A DNA stretch of 64,000 nucleotides, taken from contig NZ_MASN01000030.1 of assembly GCF_001861355.1 (NCBI RefSeq), forward strand, positions 186,001 through 250,000, read 5' to 3'. The position numbers were made by a program, and so were the translations under genes. The notes beneath the pieces are model-generated. The model ran no database searches. It was not told the DNA's origin and saw only the letters and a list, made by a program, of their open reading frames with translations. Numbering within the stretch: the stretch's first letter is position 1; each line of letters opens with the position of its first letter. The DNA is from Natrialba sp. SSL1. GTDB taxonomy: Archaea; Halobacteriota; Halobacteria; Halobacteriales; Natrialbaceae. Below are positions 43,325 to 53,810 of the stretch, in pieces.

Positions 43325-44119
43325 ATGGCGGGAGCTGCTCGGCTGTGTGTGACAAATCAGAAAGGAGGCGTCGGCAAGACGACCGTCGCGATCAACCTCG
43401 CGGGTGCGCTGAACGAACTCGGACGTGACGTCCTCTTCGTCGATCTCGATCCGCAGGGGAACGCGACCGAAGGACTCGGCCTGCTCGAGGCCTACGACGC
43501 CGAACCGCCGTCGCTACTCGACGCGCTCGTCGAGCCGGCGGCTGTCGACTGTGACGAACTCGTCTCCACTCACCCGGAGATGGACGTCGTCACGAGCAAC
43601 GTCGACATGAACGCCGCCGAGTCTACGCTCGTCCAGGAACCGGACGGCGAGACGCGACTCGACGCGCTCCTCGATCGACTCGAGACTGCAGGCGGGTACG
43701 ACGTCACCGTCGTCGACTGCTCGCCCCACCTCGGTCTCCTGACCGACAACGCGCTGTACGCGACGGAGAACCTCGTAATTCCCGCGCTCGCCGAACCGAC
43801 GAGCAAGCGGTCACTCGAGTTACTCTTCGATTACGTCGGGGCGCTGGAGATGGACCACGACGTGACGATCGAGCCGCAGGCGCTGGTGGCGAACCGGATC
43901 GAGAACACGCGAGCGGCGACGGAGATGCTCGAGTGGTTCGACGAGGCGCTGCCGGACGTGCCGCTGTATCGGATCCGAAAGCGTGTGGCGTTGCAGCGGG
44001 CGTTCGCGTCGGGGAAATCGGTGTTTGCGGTGGAGGAAGAGACGGATATGAGCGCGGTGTTCACGGAGATGGCCGAGCAGCTAGACGAGCAGTTGCCGAG
44101 ACAGGAGATTCCAGCATGA
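43325..44119 (+). CDS. ParA-family ATPase coupled to cheW
   Basis: This 264-residue protein has the deviant Walker A KGGVGKTT near residue 13-20, the FVDLDPQGN motif, and VVDCSPHLGLLTDN (Walker B), with two helical regions toward the C-terminus. ParA ATPases move cargo over the nucleoid or poles; relatives in bacteria place chemoreceptor arrays. The gene overlaps cheW by ATGA, and no parB is visible. Start ATG 43325 is used in place of TTG 43307. Confidence 0.92.
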   Translation: MAGAARLCVTNQKGGVGKTTVAINLAGALNELGRDVLFVDLDPQGNATEGLGLLEAYDAEPPSLLDALVEPAAVDCDELVSTHPEMDVVTSNVDMNAAESTLVQEPDGETRLDALLDRLETAGGYDVTVVDCSPHLGLLTDNALYATENLVIPALAEPTSKRSLELLFDYVGALEMDHDVTIEPQALVANRIENTRAATEMLEWFDEALPDVPLYRIRKRVALQRAFASGKSVFAVEEETDMSAVFTEMAEQLDEQLPRQEIPA

Positions 44120-45282
44120 CTGACGACAGAGCACGTCGACTACGGGAGATGCGCAACCGTGCGGCTGGTGGAGCACGTGAGACAGCGGAGAGTGAGGAGA
44201 CTGAAGAAACAGCGGTAACTGAGAAAACTGAGGAGACGGGGGAAACTGGAAAAACAGGGGCAACTGAGGAAACCGAGGAGACAACAGCGCAAGGCGAGGC
44301 GGACGAGACCGCGGCGGAAGCGCCGTCTGCGGACGACGACAGCGCAGATAGCGGTACCGAATCAGCAGGCGAACGCGACGGGCCAGCAACGAGCGGCGAC
44401 GGGACCGCGGCTGACAGTGATGATGGTCACGTCGACAGCCAGCAGACGGTAGACGCTCCTTCCGAGGCAGAACAGGAATCGGACACGGCCGATTCGGAGA
44501 CTGGTGCGGTGGAAACCGTCGAGCCCGCAGCTGCCGACGCGTCGGCAGAGACGGACGACGGCGATGTCTCGCTCTCGTTCAACGAGGGCGACTCGGTCTC
44601 CGACGCCGGGCCGAACGCCAACGCGGGCGGGCCGCTCGCCGCACTCGGCGGTGCCGTCGCCAGCCAGTCAACCGTCGCCGAACTCACGGGAACCGGCGCA
44701 GAACCGACCGTCGACGGCTCCGCGACGATGGCTGACGCCGAGGGGTACGGCGACGCGACCGCCGCGCGCAAGGACGCCATGTTCGAGCAGGGCAACACGC
44801 TGATCCACTCGACGCACGACGGCGAGTCGACGATCCAGATGCTCGAGTTCTACCTGAACGAGAACCGCTACGCCATCGAGATCGACCGGATCAGCGCCAT
44901 CGTCGAGATGAAAGACATCACGCGCTTCCCGCGCGGCCCCACCGCAATCGACGGTGTGACGGACCTCCGCGGCGAGATCACGGGCGTCCTCGATCCGACG
45001 ACGATGCTCGATGTCGAGCACAACGAACTGTCCGACGATCAGTACATCGTCGTCCTGGAACGCGGCGACGACAAACAGAAACTCGGCGTTCGCGTGACCG
45101 ACGTTTCGCAGGCTGTGACGTATCACGATAGCCAGATCGACGAGACGGGCAGCGTCATGGACGCCGCCGGCGACCACCAACACGAGTGCGTTCGCGGCAT
45201 CATCAAGAAGCAGGACGACGACGACCGGACGACGCTCGTCGCCTGGCTCGATATCGACGAACTCATCGCGAACATCGACTGA
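44116..45282 (+). CDS. cheW: CheW adaptor with a 230-residue disordered N-terminus
   Basis: This 388-residue protein ends in a CheW domain at about 240-385 (MLEFYLNENRYAIEI, ITRFPRGPTAIDGVTDLRGEITGVLD). CheW links transducers to CheA. It is preceded by a long Glu/Thr/Ala/Asp-rich segment, with tandem EET/KTEET repeats at about residues 22-60, that no normal CheW of about 150 residues has. The start overlaps the parA stop. The disordered arm could be a tether recognised by the ParA, which is a guess from gene coupling. Confidence 0.9.
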   Translation: MTDDRARRLREMRNRAAGGARETAESEETEETAVTEKTEETGETGKTGATEETEETTAQGEADETAAEAPSADDDSADSGTESAGERDGPATSGDGTAADSDDGHVDSQQTVDAPSEAEQESDTADSETGAVETVEPAAADASAETDDGDVSLSFNEGDSVSDAGPNANAGGPLAALGGAVASQSTVAELTGTGAEPTVDGSATMADAEGYGDATAARKDAMFEQGNTLIHSTHDGESTIQMLEFYLNENRYAIEIDRISAIVEMKDITRFPRGPTAIDGVTDLRGEITGVLDPTTMLDVEHNELSDDQYIVVLERGDDKQKLGVRVTDVSQAVTYHDSQIDETGSVMDAAGDHQHECVRGIIKKQDDDDRTTLVAWLDIDELIANID

Positions 45283-45573
45283 GACGGACTACTTGAAGTC
45301 AGTTCCGGCCCGACCGCGAGCCGTCCTGCGGTCGGATCGGCAAATCGGTACAGCAGACCGTATGACGCCTCGCTCGTCGATTCGGTCGTCTTCGTGCTCG
45401 GTTTGTTGGCCGATGCAATCGTCTTCGGTTTCGTTTTGCTGGCCGAGCCTGCGTAACCGTTCACCGAGAAACTGTTGCGTTCCGTACTGATCGCTGCATC
45501 CGTCCCGACTCTCAAACCACCGTATATGACTGTTGTGGCCGCCAAACCGCCCGCTTCTTCGAATCTGCAAAAA
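45283..45573. other. Intergenic region before the HemAT-like gene
   Basis: No gene is supported here. Frames exist on both strands but lack haloarchaeal codon and residue character. The last 30 bases hold the promoter described separately. Confidence 0.4.
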
Positions 45574-45585
45574 CACTTATTTAGC
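45574..45585 (+). promoter_or_regulatory. TATA box of the heme-less HemAT paralogue
   Basis: CACTTATTTAGC is centred about 26 bases before ATG 45606. The promoter looks intact although the gene is frameshifted. Confidence 0.6.
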
Positions 45586-45605: not shown

Positions 45606-47239
45606 ATGCCCAGAACAGACGGCGGAGCGTCCCGTCTCGAGGCCGCTACCGACCCAACGGGAACCGGGTCGGCGTCGGTCACGGACGCGGACGTCGACGC
45701 CATTACGAACGCCGGCGTCGACCCCGCGAGCGTCGACCGCGCGAGCGACCTCGTGTCACTGGACGCCGACGACGAGGCCCGACTCGAGTCGCTCTCGGAA
45801 CTCTTCGCCGACAATCGCACAGCCCTCGCCGCGGCATCCGCCGACGCCGCCTGCCGCGACCCTGCGGTTTCGAGTGCACTCACAGACCAGCGGGAGGCGA
45901 GCCAGGAGGAACTCGAGTCCGCCCAGGCTGCACTCGTCGACGCCGCGGCGAACGGGCGGGCCGACGCGGATGTGTTCGCAGCGCGGTTCGAGTCGCCGGC
46001 TGTCGGAACCCTTCTCGCGGCGGGTCCTGAAGCGTACATCGGCTCGTTCGGTGCGTACTACGAGGGCGCACTCGAGGCGATTGCTGCGGACGTGAAAGCA
46101 GAAGTTGGGGGCGAGGTCGAATCCGAGTTTGCAGCCGAACTCGAGTCCGATGCCGATACCGACGGCGAGACGGCGGACGATGTGGAGACGGCAGTAGACG
46201 ACGCCGTCGAGACCGTCGTCGAACGGACCCTTTCGCTCCTGCGTCACAGTCTCGTCGATCAGCAGCTCGCGATGGAGACCTACGCCAGCGCACAGCACAC
46301 ACAGCGGGCGGCCGACAAGGAGCGGATCGCAGAGTACGAAGCACAGCTCCAAGACCAGCTCGAGACGAAGCGCAACCGTGAGGCCGTTGGCGACCGCATT
46401 CAGGAGACGCTTCGCGAGGTCGCAGATTCGACGGACGACGTGACCGACCGAACCGCAGAGATCACCGATCTCGCGGACGACCAGTCGGCGTCGATGAACG
46501 AGATCGCGAGCGAGGTGTCCGGGCTGTCGGCGACGGTCGAGGAGATCGCCTCGAACGCCGAGGAGGTTAGTGCGACCAGCGAGCGCGCCGAGGAGATCGC
46601 AAGCGACACCACGGAAACAGCGGAGGAAGCGATCGATCAGATCGAAGACGTCGAGGACGCAACCGACGAGGTAACCGAGGACGTCGAGGATCTGCGCGAG
46701 AGCGTCCAGAAGATCGACGAAATCGTCGACGTGATCAACGACATCGCCGACCAGACGAATTTGCTCGCGCTCAACGCCTCGATCGAGGCGGCGACGGCCG
46801 GCGAGGCCGGCGACGGCTTCGCGGTCGTCGCAAACGAGGTCAAGTCACTGGCCGAGGAATCCCAGGAGGAAGCCAAGAACATCGAGCGGATGATCGACCA
46901 GATCCAGGCAGATACCGAGGAGACGGTCGACAGTCTCGATACAGCAAACGAGGCGTCTCCACTGGTGTCGACCTGGTCGAAGACACAGTCGACAACTTAG
47001 AGCGAATCGAAGAATCCGTCCAGGAGGCGAGTACGGGCATCCAGGAGGTCGCGACCGCGACCGACGACCAAGCTGCGAGTACTGAGGAGGTCGCAAGCAT
47101 GACCGACACTGCGATGGACAAATCCCAGCAGGTCGCCAACGGTCTCGAAGCCATCGAGCACCACGCCGAGACCGTCGACGAACTGGTCGACGATGTCGAG
47201 GGCGACGTTCGTCGTCTGTCGACGGACGACCACAGCTGA
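45606..47239 (+). pseudogene. HemAT-like soluble transducer, frameshifted and lacking the heme histidine
   Basis: The intact frame stops at 47000 (464 residues). Aligned to the HemAT gene at 48.2 kb, the two run in parallel until 46952. There 11 bases (46953-46963) replace 12 (49461-49472), shifting the frame. Beyond this the other frame encodes the expected signalling-domain end up to a TGA at 47239, which would give about 544 residues. The N-terminal domain matches the HemAT globin ([16 protein letters not shown] against [16 protein letters not shown]), but the proximal His position is Gly134. The remaining protein would have a methyl-accepting domain with a replaced C-terminal end. A sequencing error is not excluded. 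Confidence 0.82.
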
Positions 47240-47265: not shown

Positions 47266-47335
47266 CGAACGCCGATTGCCGACTGCCGACTGCCGAACAC
47301 CGATTGCCGAACACAACGCCGAACACCGAACTGCC
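47266..47335. repeat. GCCGA-type low-complexity repeat before the second cheW
   Basis: The sequence is built from short units such as CCGATTGCCGA, CTGCCGA and CCGAACA in tandem. It lies between the pseudogene end and the cheW start and merges into an Asn/Thr codon repeat inside the gene. Confidence 0.5.
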
Positions 47336-47902
47336 ATGGTATCCACGAATCAACCCAACGCAACACAATCGAACGCGACTGAAGAAACGAATACCAACGC
47401 CGACACCAACACAAACCCAAATACGAATACGAACACGAACACCAACGCCAACGCCACCAGCACAACCGCCAACGCCGACACCGACACCCCCGACGAACTC
47501 ACCGTCCACGTACTTGAGTTCGACCTCGGTGAAAACCGCTACTGTGTCGACATCGGCTACGTCGCGGAGATCGTCAACACGGACGAACTGACCGCGATTC
47601 CGAACACTCCCGACCACGTCGAGGGCGTGATGGACCTCCGTGGCGAAACGACGAAGATCGTCAACCTGCGAACGATCTTTGGCGAGAACGACAGCGACGA
47701 ACTCGGGAATCGAATCATCGTCTTCAAGCGAAAGCGCGATTCGACCGACCGGATCGGCTGGCTCGCAGACGAGGTACGCCAGGTACGCAAGATCGACGCG
47801 ACAGCAGTCGACACCGCCGTTGACGGCGAGGGGATCGCTGGCATCGTTCGACAGGAAGACGAATTCGTGCTGTGGATTGATCCGACCGACGTTCGCGTTT
47901 AA
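47336..47902 (+). CDS. cheW: CheW adaptor with an Asn/Thr repeat arm
   Basis: This 188-residue protein has a CheW domain at about 50-185 (VLEFDLGENRYCVDI, NTPDHVEGVMDLRGETTKIVNL). The first 50 residues are a run of Asn-Thr and Asn-Ala dipeptides from a simple DNA repeat. This is unusual in a proteome where linkers are normally Asp/Glu-rich. ATG 47336 is used; the frame opens at 47276 but those residues come from the non-coding repeat. It is placed between the broken and intact HemAT genes, so it may serve those transducers. Confidence 0.92.
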   Translation: MVSTNQPNATQSNATEETNTNADTNTNPNTNTNTNTNANATSTTANADTDTPDELTVHVLEFDLGENRYCVDIGYVAEIVNTDELTAIPNTPDHVEGVMDLRGETTKIVNLRTIFGENDSDELGNRIIVFKRKRDSTDRIGWLADEVRQVRKIDATAVDTAVDGEGIAGIVRQEDEFVLWIDPTDVRV

Positions 47903-48140: not shown

Positions 48141-48164
48141 ATGACTCGACGGAACATCGAGACA

Positions 48165-49751
48165 ATGCCGACTCACCAGACGGAGCGCCAGTCGCAGTTC
48201 AAAATCGACGAGAGCAACAGACGACAGGTCGATGGAGAATCACTCGCCGCACGGATCGGACTTGACCGTCGCGAAATCGAGTGGCGAAAAGAGTTCGTCG
48301 GCTTCGACAGCGCGGATGAAGACCGACTCGAGTCGATGGCACCGCTGTTCGAGGAGATTGCAGACGACCTCGTCGACGAGTTCTACGCCCATCTGCAGTC
48401 GAACACAGAGGCGACCGCTGTTCTCAATTCCTCGTCGAAAGCTGTCGACGCACTCGAGAAGACCCAGTACGAGTATCTACTCGATCTCGGGCGCGGCGAA
48501 TACGGAACCGAGTACGCTGAGCGTCGTGCCAGAATTGGCAAAATCCACGATATGCTGGATATGGGGCCGAAGTTCTACCTCGGCGGCTATTCGATCTACT
48601 ACGAAGGAATTCTGACGGCACTTGCTGAGGATGCGACGGACGAGCTTGCCGGTGAGACTGTTTCGGAGACACCTGCCACGGAGTCGTCTGCGTCTGCAGG
48701 CGAGGAACACACGCCAGACACGGCGCAGGACGAGCCACTCGTGCCGCTCTCGGAGGCCCAGGCGATGGTCGACGGCGTCGTCGAACAGTCGCTCTCCGTG
48801 CTCAAACTCCTGAACGTCGACCAGCAGATCGCGATGGATACCTACATCGACGCCTACGCCGATATCGAGGACGAACTCGAGCACCGACGCGAGGTCTCGA
48901 AGAACGTCCAGTCATCGGTCAGCGACCTTCGCGAGAGTTCGTCGGAGGTTTCGGAGCGCTCCGAGGAGATTAACGACCTGGCCGCGAAGCAGTCCAACGC
49001 GGTTGGCGAGATTTCGAGCGAGGTCGCCGGACTGTCGGCGACGGTCGAGGAGATCGCCTCGAACGCCGAGGAGGTCAGCGCGACCAGCGAGCGCGCCGAG
49101 GAGATCGCAAGCGACACCACGGAGACCGCCGAGGAAGCCATCGACAAGATGGAGGTCGTCGACGACGCTGCGGACGAGGTCACCGACGATGTCGAGGATC
49201 TGCGCGAGAGCGTCCAGAAGATCGACGAGATCGTCGACGTGATCAACGACATCGCCGACCAGACCAATCTCCTCGCGCTCAACGCCTCGATCGAGGCGGC
49301 GACGGCCGGCGAGGCCGGCGACGGCTTCGCAGTCGTCGCAAACGAGGTCAAGTCCCTGGCCGAGGAGTCCCAGGAGGAAGCCAAGAACATCGAGCGGATG
49401 ATCGACCAGATCCAGGCAGATACCGAGGAGACGGTCGACAGCCTCGAGACGGCAAACGAGGAGATCGAAAGCGGTGTCGACCTGGTCGAGGAGACGGTCG
49501 ACAACTTAGAGCGAATCGAAGAATCCGTCCAGGAGGCGAGTACGGGCATCCAGGAGGTCGCAACGGCAACCGACGACCAGGCTGCGAGTACTGAGGAGGT
49601 CGCAAGCATGGCCGACACCGCAATGGAACAGTCACACGAGGTCACAACCGAAATCGAGGCGATCGTCGACCAGAACGAGCAAGTCGAAGAGATCGTCGAC
49701 AAGATCGAGTCCGAAGTCGCCCGACTCGCCGACGAGATGTCCTCGTCGTAG
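48165..49751 (+). CDS. hemAT: HemAT globin-coupled aerotaxis transducer
   Basis: This 528-residue soluble transducer has a globin-coupled sensor at about 25-210 with the proximal heme ligand His128 in [21 protein letters not shown], split here as RIGKIH then GPKFYLGG. A linker and a methyl-accepting signalling domain at about 250-528 follow, with the hairpin tip [15 protein letters not shown]. HemAT binds O2 and steers cells away from or toward oxygen through CheA. It matches Halobacterium HemAT as I recall it ([22 protein letters not shown]). No membrane helix is present. The signalling half is nearly identical to that of the broken paralogue upstream. Confidence 0.95.
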
Positions 49752-49875: not shown

Positions 49876-50628
49876 TCAGTCCGCAGACTGAACCGACCCA
49901 GTCGTGGCACCGTCAGTACTCGAACTCGAGTTCACCGCGGCTGTTGCGGGTCGATCGTCGGTGGCGTCTGCGAGTGCGTCCGTACTGCGGAGCACCAGTC
50001 CGCCGAAGCCGGCGAGCCAGACGATGTCGAGGTAGGTCGCGAGCGTCTGGCCGACGAAGGCGTCGGTGAACGCGAGGTTCTGTGCGGAGAGCATACCGGT
50101 TGCGAGCAGCCCGACGAAGACGAGGACGGTCAGGTTCCTGAGTCGACTGAACAGGAGCGTGCGCTCGCTGCTCACGGTCTGTGCCTGGCGTGCGAGCGGG
50201 CCGTACAGGGTAGCGCCCATTACGCCGACGCCGGCGACGATCGCGAGTGAGATGACGGTCCCGGCCGTGCCGCCGAGAATCCAGCTCCCCACAGTCGCCC
50301 AGAGACTCAGCAGAATCCCGCCGAGCAGGGCGAGTGTGTACCGCCGTTCGGCACCGGATATCAGCCCGATCACAGAGGCGACGGCACCCCAGGCGATCGA
50401 GTAGCCGAGGAACCGGGCGACAGACTCGTCGCGGCCGGTCGTCGAGACGGTGAGAACGCCCGCAGCCATCAGCAGGTACGTGACACACATCACGCCGGAG
50501 GCGGCGACGACCGCATACCCGAGACGCCGTGATCCGGCCTCGAGTCGGCGGACCCATAGCAGGAAGAGAGTCGTCATTGCTGCAAGAATCGTGCTCGTCA
50601 GTACGAAGGTTGTCGTGTGGTCAATCAT
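49876..50628 (-). CDS. Lysine-less sensory rhodopsin II-like membrane protein (opsin A)
   Basis: This 250-residue protein has seven predicted helices (about residues 6-27, 35-60, 71-91, 96-116, 120-142, 160-182 and 192-215). It keeps rhodopsin landmarks: Tyr51, ARF with Arg72, SRLRNLTV at 161-168, Tyr199, Asp201 and GFG at 207-209. It aligns to Natronomonas SRII without gaps, so numbers agree. Lys205, which binds retinal, is Leu. The counterion Asp75 is Gly, Trp171 is Phe, Tyr174 is Leu, Trp178 is Gly and Thr204 is Trp. Retinal binding through a Schiff base is therefore impossible. The gene follows the HtrII-like transducer gene, 154 bases downstream. A Ser/Asp-rich tail ends the protein. Confidence 0.85.
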   Translation of the reverse strand: MIDHTTTFVLTSTILAAMTTLFLLWVRRLEAGSRRLGYAVVAASGVMCVTYLLMAAGVLTVSTTGRDESVARFLGYSIAWGAVASVIGLISGAERRYTLALLGGILLSLWATVGSWILGGTAGTVISLAIVAGVGVMGATLYGPLARQAQTVSSERTLLFSRLRNLTVLVFVGLLATGMLSAQNLAFTDAFVGQTLATYLDIVWLAGFGGLVLRSTDALADATDDRPATAAVNSSSSTDGATTGSVQSAD

Positions 50629-50782: not shown

Positions 50783-52423
50783 TTAGTCGTCTCCAACTCC
50801 CGCAGGGGCCGCCATCGCCGACTGGGCCTGCCGATCGATCGTAAACGTCTCCATCAACTCGTTCAGCCGCTGTGCCTGCTCGTCCAGATCGCCCGCCATC
50901 GTCGAGACGCTCTCCGTCGTCGCCGTCGTCTCCTCGGAGGCTGCTGCGACCTGCTCGGCCTGACTGCTCGTCTCCGCCGACACGCTCGTCACGTCGTCGA
51001 CGATCGTCGCAAGCTCCTGTGCCGAACTCGCCTGGTCGTCCGCCGTCTGCGTAATCTCCTGAATACTCGCGTCCATCTGGTCCGCCTCGGAACTGATCGT
51101 CTCGAGTTGGGACTGCAGCTCGTCGACGCGCGTCGCCGTCGTCTTGATGTTCGAGTCGACCATCGTGATCTCCTCCGCCGTCGTCCCCGTCCGATCACGG
51201 ATGGACTCGAGTGTCCCCTCGATTTCCTCGACGGCGTCCATGGTTTCCTCGGCGAGCGACTTGATCTCGTTCGCGACGACGGCGAAGCCGTCCCCGCTCT
51301 CGTCGGCGCGGGCGGCTTCGACGTTCGCGTTGAGCGCGAGTAGATTGGTCTGGTCGGCGATGTCGTCGATGAGCGAGATCACTTCGCCGATCTGGTCGGC
51401 CTCCTCGTTGAGTTCCTCGACCGTTTCGACGACGGTTTCGGTCGTCTCGACGAGCTGGTCGATGTTCTGTGCGGCGTCGGCTGCCGCATCCTGGCCGTCG
51501 TCTGCGAGCGTCGCCATCCCTTCGGACTGGGTTGCGATCTCGGAGGTCGTCGCTGCGACTTCCTCGGTGGCCGCCGAGAGGTCGCTGACCTCGCTGGCGG
51601 CGAGTTCGAGATCCTCGGTCTGGCTCGTCGCGCCGTCTGCGATCTCCTGGACCGACTCGGCGACTTCCTGGCTGGCTGCGCGGATCTGCTGGCTCGACCC
51701 CTGCAGGTCGCCGGACATCTCGTCGACCGTTTCGCTTGCGTCCTGCACTTCGGCGACGACGTCGCCAATCCGATCGAGCATCCGGTTGAACGACTCCGCA
51801 ATCGCCCGCATCGCCTCGTCGTCCGTCTGCGGGTCGAGTCGTCGACTGAGGTCGCCGGCAGCACACTCGTCCATCACGTCCGAGAAGCGCTGGGCTTCGG
51901 CGACGAGTTCCTGATTCTGCTGTTCGGCCTGATGCTGGAGTTCCTGAATCCGCTCGCGTTCCTCCTCGAGCTGGGCGGCCTGCTCCTCGGCTTCCTGCTG
52001 GGCCGTCTCGGCGCGTTCCTGTTCGGCCTCGACCTCTTCGAGTGTCGTCTCGAGTGAGTCGCGCATCGCACCGACCGAGTCGTAGAGCTGGCCGATCTCG
52101 TCGACCCGATTGGTTTCGAGGTCGACGTCGAACGTCCCGTCGCCGATCTGCTCGGTTCGCTCGCCGAGCTGGCGCAGCGACAGGGCGACGTTTCCGCCGA
52201 GAACGATCCCGACGAGCCCGAGGTTGACCGAGAAAATAACGAGTAGGCCGGTCAGTCCGGCGATGGCGCGTTCCTGCAGTCCCTCGGTCGGGCCGTTGAC
52301 GATGTGGAGTCCAAACAGGACACCGAACCCGATCGTCACGACGGCGACGAAACCGAGCGCACCGGCTATCTTGACACTGTACTGGCGGCGAATCCGTGCT
52401 GGTAGTAGTGAATCGAATTGCAT
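50783..52423 (-). CDS. HtrII-like membrane transducer (methyl-accepting), partner candidate for opsin-like proteins
   Basis: This 546-residue transducer has only two membrane helices (about residues 18-39 and 54-76) joined by a loop of about 14 residues, so it has no sensor domain of its own. A HAMP region follows (about 77-130, [22 protein letters not shown]), then a long Glu/Gln coiled coil, a second HAMP-like part ([16 protein letters not shown]) and the signalling hairpin tip ([15 protein letters not shown]). This plan, and many residues as I recall them, match Natronomonas HtrII (LLPSRVR start, GINLGLVAATLGG helix). The helix-2 Asn that contacts SRII is present as Asn67 in SVNLGLVG. Such transducers depend on a membrane partner for input, and the two flanking opsin-like genes are the evident candidates. 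Confidence 0.92.
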
Positions 52424-52655: not shown

Positions 52656-53462
52656 TCAGTCGCTCTCCGTCGCGTTCGAGCCGGGTGTCTGTGCCCCCGT
52701 TCCACCTGTACCCGACCGGTCTCCACTCGAGTGTCCCGTGCTCGAATCGCCCACGCTCGACCCACCCCCGACCGCGCCCCACGAGACAAGCGGCCCGGTG
52801 GACGCGAGTGCCTCGGTGTTTCGTGCGAGGAGGAGCCCGAATCCGAACAGGAAGACGAGATCGACGTACGTTGCGGCGAGTTGGCCGACGACAGCGTCGG
52901 TGAGCCCGAGCGTCTGTTCGGAGAGTGCCCCGAGGACGATGAGGCTGGCCCAGACGAGCAACAGCAGGTTTCTGAGCTTTCCGTAGAGGAGCGTCCGCTC
53001 GGCGTGAACCGCGCTGGCGGCGCGTGCCATCGGTCCAAGCAGGAGCACTGTGACGCCGAGGAACGAACCGAGGATGAGCCCGGTGGCGAGCAGTTCTCCT
53101 GTCCCGCTCAGGATCCAGCTCGCGAGCGTCCCCCAGACTGCGACCAGATTCCCACCCACGAGGAGGAGTGTCTGTCGCCGTCGTGCGCCCGCGAGCGCAC
53201 CGATAACGAGACTACTGGTCGTCATCACGACCGTATACCCGAGGAACCGGGCAGCCGATTCCTCGCGGCCGGAGGTCACGACGGTCAACGCATCCGCTGC
53301 CATGAGCAGGTACGCAGTGCCCATGCTGGCACAGGCGAGTGCAATCGCGTAGCCAAACTGCCGTGTGGTCGCTGGCAACCGCCGTGTGCCGAGTGTGAAG
53401 CCACCGGCCCCGAGGAGTAACAGTACCCCCGAGCCCGCGAGAATCGGCTCGCTCGCGATCAT
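52656..53462 (-). CDS. Lysine-less sensory rhodopsin II-like membrane protein (opsin B)
   Basis: This 268-residue paralogue of opsin A aligns to it without gaps over the first 215 residues. It keeps Tyr51, Arg72 in ARFLGY, KLRNL at 162-166, Trp171, Tyr199, Asp201 and GFG at 207-209. As in opsin A, the retinal lysine 205 is Leu, the counterion 75 is Gly and position 204 is aromatic (Phe). The C-terminal 45 residues are Gly/Ser/Thr-rich. ATG 53462 is chosen over an upstream GTG because GGTGATC lies 6 bases before it and the N-terminus then matches opsin A. It is encoded upstream of the HtrII-like gene on the same strand, 232 bases apart. Confidence 0.85.
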   Translation of the reverse strand: MIASEPILAGSGVLLLLGAGGFTLGTRRLPATTRQFGYAIALACASMGTAYLLMAADALTVVTSGREESAARFLGYTVVMTTSSLVIGALAGARRRQTLLLVGGNLVAVWGTLASWILSGTGELLATGLILGSFLGVTVLLLGPMARAASAVHAERTLLYGKLRNLLLLVWASLIVLGALSEQTLGLTDAVVGQLAATYVDLVFLFGFGLLLARNTEALASTGPLVSWGAVGGGSSVGDSSTGHSSGDRSGTGGTGAQTPGSNATESD

Positions 53463-53810
53463 CGGTGGATCACCGAGGGGAGATAGCCGGCTGCGTGTTG
53501 TCGCTGTGCCCACCCATCGAGCGTCGGCTGTCGGTCCGTGTTGTCGACCCGATACCACCGTCCGTCTCGTCGACTCCGTCGCGGATCACTGAGTTCTGTC
53601 AGAGAGACCCACCCGGTTGTGATGGGTTGTCAACACACATAATGATTTGTGAATCTACACTTCTTGGCCGGTTTTTCAGCGTGAACAGCGCCTCGTTCGT
53701 TTCGACCCGGAGCCCGCCTGTGATTTTCCCGCGCTTGGTCACACATATAACAATAAAAACATATGCAGATCAACTACTACAGAGGTGTAAGAGAGCTACA
53801 CAGTGTCGTA
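53463..53810. other. Divergent intergenic region between opsin B and cheR
   Basis: No gene is supported here. The stretch is AT-rich at 53630-53770 with TATA-like words on both strands (ACATAATGATTTGTG near 53636; ACATATAACAATAAAAACATATG near 53742). It probably holds the promoters of opsin B and of cheR. Confidence 0.45.

Follow-up and report, generated by a model that had tools for sequence, protein, structure and literature searches.

Introduction

The closest described relatives of the receptor analysed here are the HemAT transducers (HemAT-Bs, PDB entries 1or4 and 1or6, and HemAT-Hs), soluble proteins in which a protoglobin sensor domain is combined with an MCP signalling domain. HemAT-Bs retains haem and senses O2, and its sensor domain also binds ethanol in a manner that does not involve the haem (PMC7542364). 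The RsbR proteins of the Bacillus stressosomes are established non-haem globin sensors from which two key residues, the proximal His and the distal Tyr, are missing (PMC4976288; PMC6614362), and the former paper cites a non-haem globin domain from Bacillus anthracis whose crystals contained a fatty acid. In haloarchaea, lysine-less opsin-related proteins (ORPs) have been described that include a Natrialba group in which the Lys is replaced by Leu or a different hydrophobic residue, and for a N. magadii protein a failure to take up retinal has been demonstrated (PMC4915679). The N. magadii genome paper gives three MCP genes in the che cluster together with a hemAT-type transducer, with no mention of a His-less transducer in those passages (PMC3403918).

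The subject of this analysis is a HemAT-like gene in a 64,000-nucleotide stretch of the genome of Natrialba sp. SSL1 (contig NZ_MASN01000030.1), referred to as the window. Its product, a protoglobin–MCP receptor that lacks the proximal haem-ligating His, carries the working name HisLess. No description of a clade of His-less protoglobins was found in the open-licence literature. HisLess is quite probably a functional haem-free globin chemoreceptor of HemAT-type descent, the haem site of which was lost once and which has been maintained since.

Gene and domain organization

HisLess is encoded on the + strand by an open reading frame that in the assembly extends from 45606 to 47000 and translates into 464 residues with Pfam matches to the Protoglobin and MCPsignal families. 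The protoglobin-like sensor domain (residues 41–230; 45726..46295, +) is recognized by PF11563 at 29.0 bits, just over the curated cut-off of 25, and its assignment also draws on AlphaFold and Foldseek. The C-terminal MCP signalling domain matches PF00015 (E = 7.9 × 10−36) and is complete in relatives; in the window its in-frame portion comprises residues 337–449 (46614..46952, +). The initial annotation had taken 45606–47239 as a single open reading frame, which does not hold, as the frame ends at 47000 and the remainder of the MCP domain lies in another frame (46953..47239, +), where it is conserved with relatives up to a TGA, with ∼95% identity to the closest orthologue. Searched against Pfam, HisLess gave no hit to Rsbr_N or STAS; its output is of the MCP type, whereas RsbR, which assembles into stressosomes, has an output of the STAS type.

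Two CheW-domain proteins (PF01584), both encoded on the + strand, are syntenic neighbours of HisLess: one upstream (44116..45282), in the order ParA–CheW–HisLess in several genera, and one downstream (47276..47902). A canonical HemAT paralogue is found at 48141..49751 (+), with a PF11563 match of 103 bits and a conserved haem His (codon 48546–48548). Beyond it, two bacteriorhodopsin-like proteins (PF01036) are encoded on the − strand at 49876–50628 and 52656–53558, with Leu in place of the Schiff-base Lys in the motifs YLDIVWL and YVDLVFL; the two genes flank a HAMP–MCP transducer (50783–52423), and their products match group B of the published ORPs (PMC4915679). With Leu at this position in both opsin-like genes, the earlier description of HisLess as a second cofactor-less sensor homologue in the same island is right as a statement about sequence. 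The ORPs resemble HisLess in having lost a cofactor site within a taxis receptor family and in belonging to the same che cluster, but they represent an unrelated protein family and have already been described (PMC4915679).

The haem-ligand position

The sensor domains of HisLess and HemAT had been proposed to align, with the PxxYxGxxxxYYEG anchor motif in common (residues 141–154 of HisLess; 46026..46067, +), and this was borne out by an hhalign comparison of the two families, which gave a probability of 99.95% (E = 9 × 10−38) with no gaps across the whole motif. Gly134 of HisLess (codon GGA; 46005..46007, +), the seventh residue before Pro141, falls at the proximal haem-ligand position (F8), where HemAT has His. 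This is His136 when HemAT is numbered from the ATG at 48141 and His128, the residue placed opposite Gly134 in the initial annotation, when it is numbered from the ATG at 48165.

Inspection of the whole of residues 1–213 of HisLess revealed no His; the only ones close to the domain, at residues 214 and 231, lie at or past its last helix. Since this stretch is free of His, no realignment can place one at the ligand site, and the observation of its loss is therefore independent of the alignment. An alignment artefact was rejected on the basis of the ungapped profile alignment and the lack of His in residues 1–213, and a base change or sequencing error confined to the genome of the window was rejected because the six other Natrialba orthologues, as well as copies in other genera, also lack the His. 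The helix B position of the distal-pocket Tyr is occupied by Ala79 in HisLess, so that its globin domain, like that of RsbR, is without both the proximal His and the distal Tyr (Gly134 and Ala79, with losses that are clade-wide). Whereas the adjoining genes share the anchor motif, the signalling tip and a predicted fold, HisLess differs from HemAT in lacking the proximal His and the RxRIGKxH motif of helix F, and the two sensor domains are only ∼30% identical. HisLess is best classed as a relative of the globin-coupled sensors that lacks the haem ligand by which HemAT membership is judged, and it presumably does not sense O2 through haem.

Distribution and phylogeny

A related-locus search in GTDB gave eight loci, and wider sampling was obtained from profile searches of genomes, which covered 392 genomes of the class; all fetched domains were aligned. 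This alignment contains 23 distinct His-less protoglobin sequences, all of which come from the family to which the window itself belongs (f1, which holds Natrialba and Halopiger). The carriers are Natrialba, G025, G028, G029, G030 (two copies), G034, G141 (two copies), G188, G217, G312, G325, G329 and G371. At the ligand site His is present in none of the 23 sequences of the clade, compared with 71 of the 71 other haloarchaeal protoglobins checked (50/50 and 21/21) in a sampling that was wide, yet not exhaustive, beyond the His-less clade.

Trees were built after deletion of the His column, one that included flanking sequence and one restricted to the sensor domain. In both, the 23 sequences group together as a single clade (support 100/100) that implies one change of state; in the second tree the stem of the clade measures 1.30 substitutions per site. 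The archaeal clade sits beside the haloarchaeal HemAT-type set, for which reason the loss looks independent of that in RsbR. Two subclades are resolved: subclade I has Gly, Ala, Glu or Pro at the ligand site, and subclade II has Asp in eight of eight sequences. Among the seven Natrialba genomes, including that of the window, four have Gly at this site and three have Ala. The question raised with the initial annotation of whether the Gly is fixed is thus answered in the negative, as only the absence of His is fixed, and Gly as a fixed functional replacement was rejected.

The genome of the window (G000) contains a second His-less protoglobin–MCP on contig C18 (105,962–106,597; also placed at about 105,960–106,525), to which loci L003, L039 and L110 correspond. 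This copy belongs to subclade II, has Asp at the ligand site, is intact and lies away from the che genes.

Relationship to the neighbouring HemAT

Across a stretch of 136 codons surrounding the signalling tip, the dS between HisLess and HemAT from the same genome is 0.23–0.45, compared with 0.52–0.78 for the same codons between the orthologues of different species, the close pair G004/G005 excepted. This lower dS between paralogues than between orthologues indicates that the tips have been homogenized by gene conversion, a pattern seen in each Natrialba genome tested (46614–46952 and the matching part of 48141–49751); in HisLess of the window the converted hairpin tip lies within 46614..46952 (+) and shows a within-genome paralogue dS of 0.275, against 0.52–0.73 for orthologues. 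The CheA- and CheW-contacting tip is intact in HisLess, and the two receptors very probably address the same kinase.

It is conceivable, though rather unlikely, that HisLess senses no ligand of its own and serves as a tuning partner that adjusts the gain of aerotaxis through heterodimers or mixed trimers-of-dimers with HemAT. Such a role would accord with the likeness of the two signalling tips maintained by gene conversion, with the short distance of ∼1 kb that separates HisLess from HemAT in G034 and in each of the seven Natrialba genomes, and with the presence of a His-bearing protoglobin in every genome that carries a subclade I (Gly/Ala/Glu/Pro-type) copy. Physical adjacency alone could explain the gene conversion, however, which does not imply shared arrays, and in G029, G025 and G141 the His-bearing protoglobin is located elsewhere. 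Identity of only about 30% between the sensor domains makes heterodimers formed through them doubtful. G217, G312 and G371 carry an Asp-type (subclade II) copy and have no His-bearing protoglobin at all. Sensing by the Asp-type receptor in these three genomes cannot involve HemAT, so that the His-less type as a whole needs no HemAT, and an obligate HemAT partner is not supported. G371, G312 and G217 (loci L131, L132 and L133) represent one genus, with the Asp-type His-less protoglobin only.

Residue conservation and predicted fold

The survival of residues in the clade was scored at positions that are invariant in the His-bearing receptors. The residues of the helix F RxRIGKxH motif (Ala, Arg, Gly, Lys and His) are kept in between zero and three of the 23 His-less sequences, and the helix B Phe–Tyr pair in two and four, respectively; the distal Tyr, found in 50 of 50 His-bearing sequences, is gone from 19 of the 23. 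Asp56, Leu60, Arg127, Tyr152 and Asp218 are kept in all 23 and Gly117 in 22, and the pattern is one of a lost haem site on a retained scaffold. The proposal that haem cannot be bound through the usual proximal His finds strong support at the level of sequence in the loss of this residue from 23 of 23 members, the single origin of the loss and the disappearance of the distal Tyr and the helix F motif.

A confident AlphaFold model of the HisLess sensor domain (pLDDT 89.5, pTM 0.83) has HemAT-Bs as its top Foldseek matches in the PDB (1or6 and 1or4; probability 1.00, TM-score 0.80 by target length, E ∼0.02), and the best PDB chain by sequence profile is also HemAT (E = 2.7 × 10−4). The neighbouring HemAT, modelled as a control from ten close sequences, gave a poor result (pLDDT 62.5), so the two models are not fairly comparable and the higher score of the HisLess model is not evidence of better packing than in HemAT.

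Retention of the predicted globin fold, together with Tyr152 in all 23 sequences and Tyr at the position of Tyr144 in 21 of them, leads to the proposal that HisLess still binds haem, either through another axial ligand (Tyr152, Tyr144 or, in the copy of the window, Cys83) or as a loosely held five-coordinate haem. Haem could be weakly retained in a globin pocket or through a residue such as Tyr144 or Tyr152, but the His-bearing receptors conserve these two tyrosines to the same extent, which makes their retention uninformative about any new coordination. Cys83 is present in only five of the 23 sequences, no column of His, Cys or Met is conserved among them above ∼30%, and the distal Tyr is mostly lost, so that haem binding of this kind is improbable.

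Selection, synteny and the frameshift

Between species, the sensor domain of HisLess shows dN/dS values of 0.21–0.43, and for each of the pairs compared the value is significantly lower than 1 (Fisher p between 0.03 and 5 × 10−11); the corresponding values for the HemAT domain are somewhat tighter (0.14–0.30). HisLess is under purifying selection. The order ParA–CheW–HisLess–CheW within the core che cluster is conserved in Natrialba, G029, G034 and G329, its left half (ParA–CheW–HisLess) is present at contig ends in G325 and G188, and HisLess–CheW is found in G025, G030 and G141.

Upstream of the gene lies a 22-nucleotide promoter-like sequence with a TATA-like element, ATCTGCAAAAACACTTATTTAG (45563..45584, +), about 26 nucleotides before the HisLess ATG and at a fixed distance from it in several genera. 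Its sequence and spacing are identical in the aligned Natrialba orthologues, with few changes in G034, G029, G325, G329 and G030. The element occurs once in the window and once in the whole genome, which argues for a promoter private to HisLess, and a che regulon motif was rejected for the same reason. The HisLess transcript would be leaderless.

The copy in the window lacks one base after position 46952 relative to the six Natrialba orthologues in a nucleotide alignment (46952..46953, +): the window reads AACGAG-GCGTCTCC, compared with GAGCGCGTCTCC in relatives, the orthologue forms being CAGCGCGTCTCC or GAGCGCGTCTC. The frame is open through the site in orthologues G002, G004, G005 and G006. 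The same MCP segment contains a stretch of N in G003, where the frame is still open beyond the site. In G001 the frame is broken at the segment by a stretch of N, which represents an assembly gap and not a mutation. Such interruptions in two relatives point to difficulties with assembly at the position of the frameshift. The MCP region of HisLess is a near repeat of the corresponding segment of HemAT, at a distance of 2.5 kb (88% across 509 nucleotides), which makes a misassembly plausible, and the frameshift site borders the segment common to the two genes. The frameshift reflects either a fault in the assembly or a mutation of very recent date, and with the frameshifted copy HisLess of the window strain may be non-working. 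That HisLess is a decaying HemAT duplicate without function, as the truncation of its signalling domain by the deletion might indicate, is highly improbable given the dN/dS values well below 1, the intact genes in relatives and several genera, the conserved promoter and synteny, and the plausibility of a misassembly at a site that borders the HemAT-shared segment and falls near N runs in two relatives.

Functional interpretation

The His-less receptor is thus probably real and senses something other than haem-bound O2. In the proposed mechanism a globin-coupled sensor of the HemAT type would have lost its haem site once, before the family of the window diversified, and the resulting soluble haem-free ('apo') protoglobin receptor would then have been retained. 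By analogy with HemAT, it would form a homodimer through the G and H helices of the globin domain, and the intact tip and the synteny suggest that it joins the same CheA–CheW arrays as HemAT. A non-haem stimulus would alter the dimer and thereby produce the signal. A small hydrophobic compound that occupies the emptied haem pocket or lies close to it may be the likeliest stimulus, a tentative guess made by analogy because HemAT-Bs, although it retains haem and senses O2, binds a small organic molecule through its protoglobin domain without the haem, and because the B. anthracis non-haem globin held a fatty acid.

It is possible, if doubtful, that these proteins constitute a distinct archaeal chemoreceptor class in which the haem pocket of a protoglobin, once vacated, was recruited to sense a new ligand and that, beside the retinal-less opsins, two cofactor-based families have been made cofactor-free in one taxis system. 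The signalling half of HisLess is nearly identical to that of HemAT, and sensor swaps between them should therefore be straightforward.

The His-less proteins are likely to be annotated by similarity as HemAT or aerotaxis transducers and hence to be wrongly taken for oxygen sensors. The clade offers a natural set, with a single loss followed by two fates of the ligand site (variable in one subclade and fixed as Asp in the other), for the question of how a gas sensor signals without its cofactor. With HisLess beside the retinal-less opsins, the che cluster offers a case in which the repeated loss of cofactors from taxis receptors can be put to the test.
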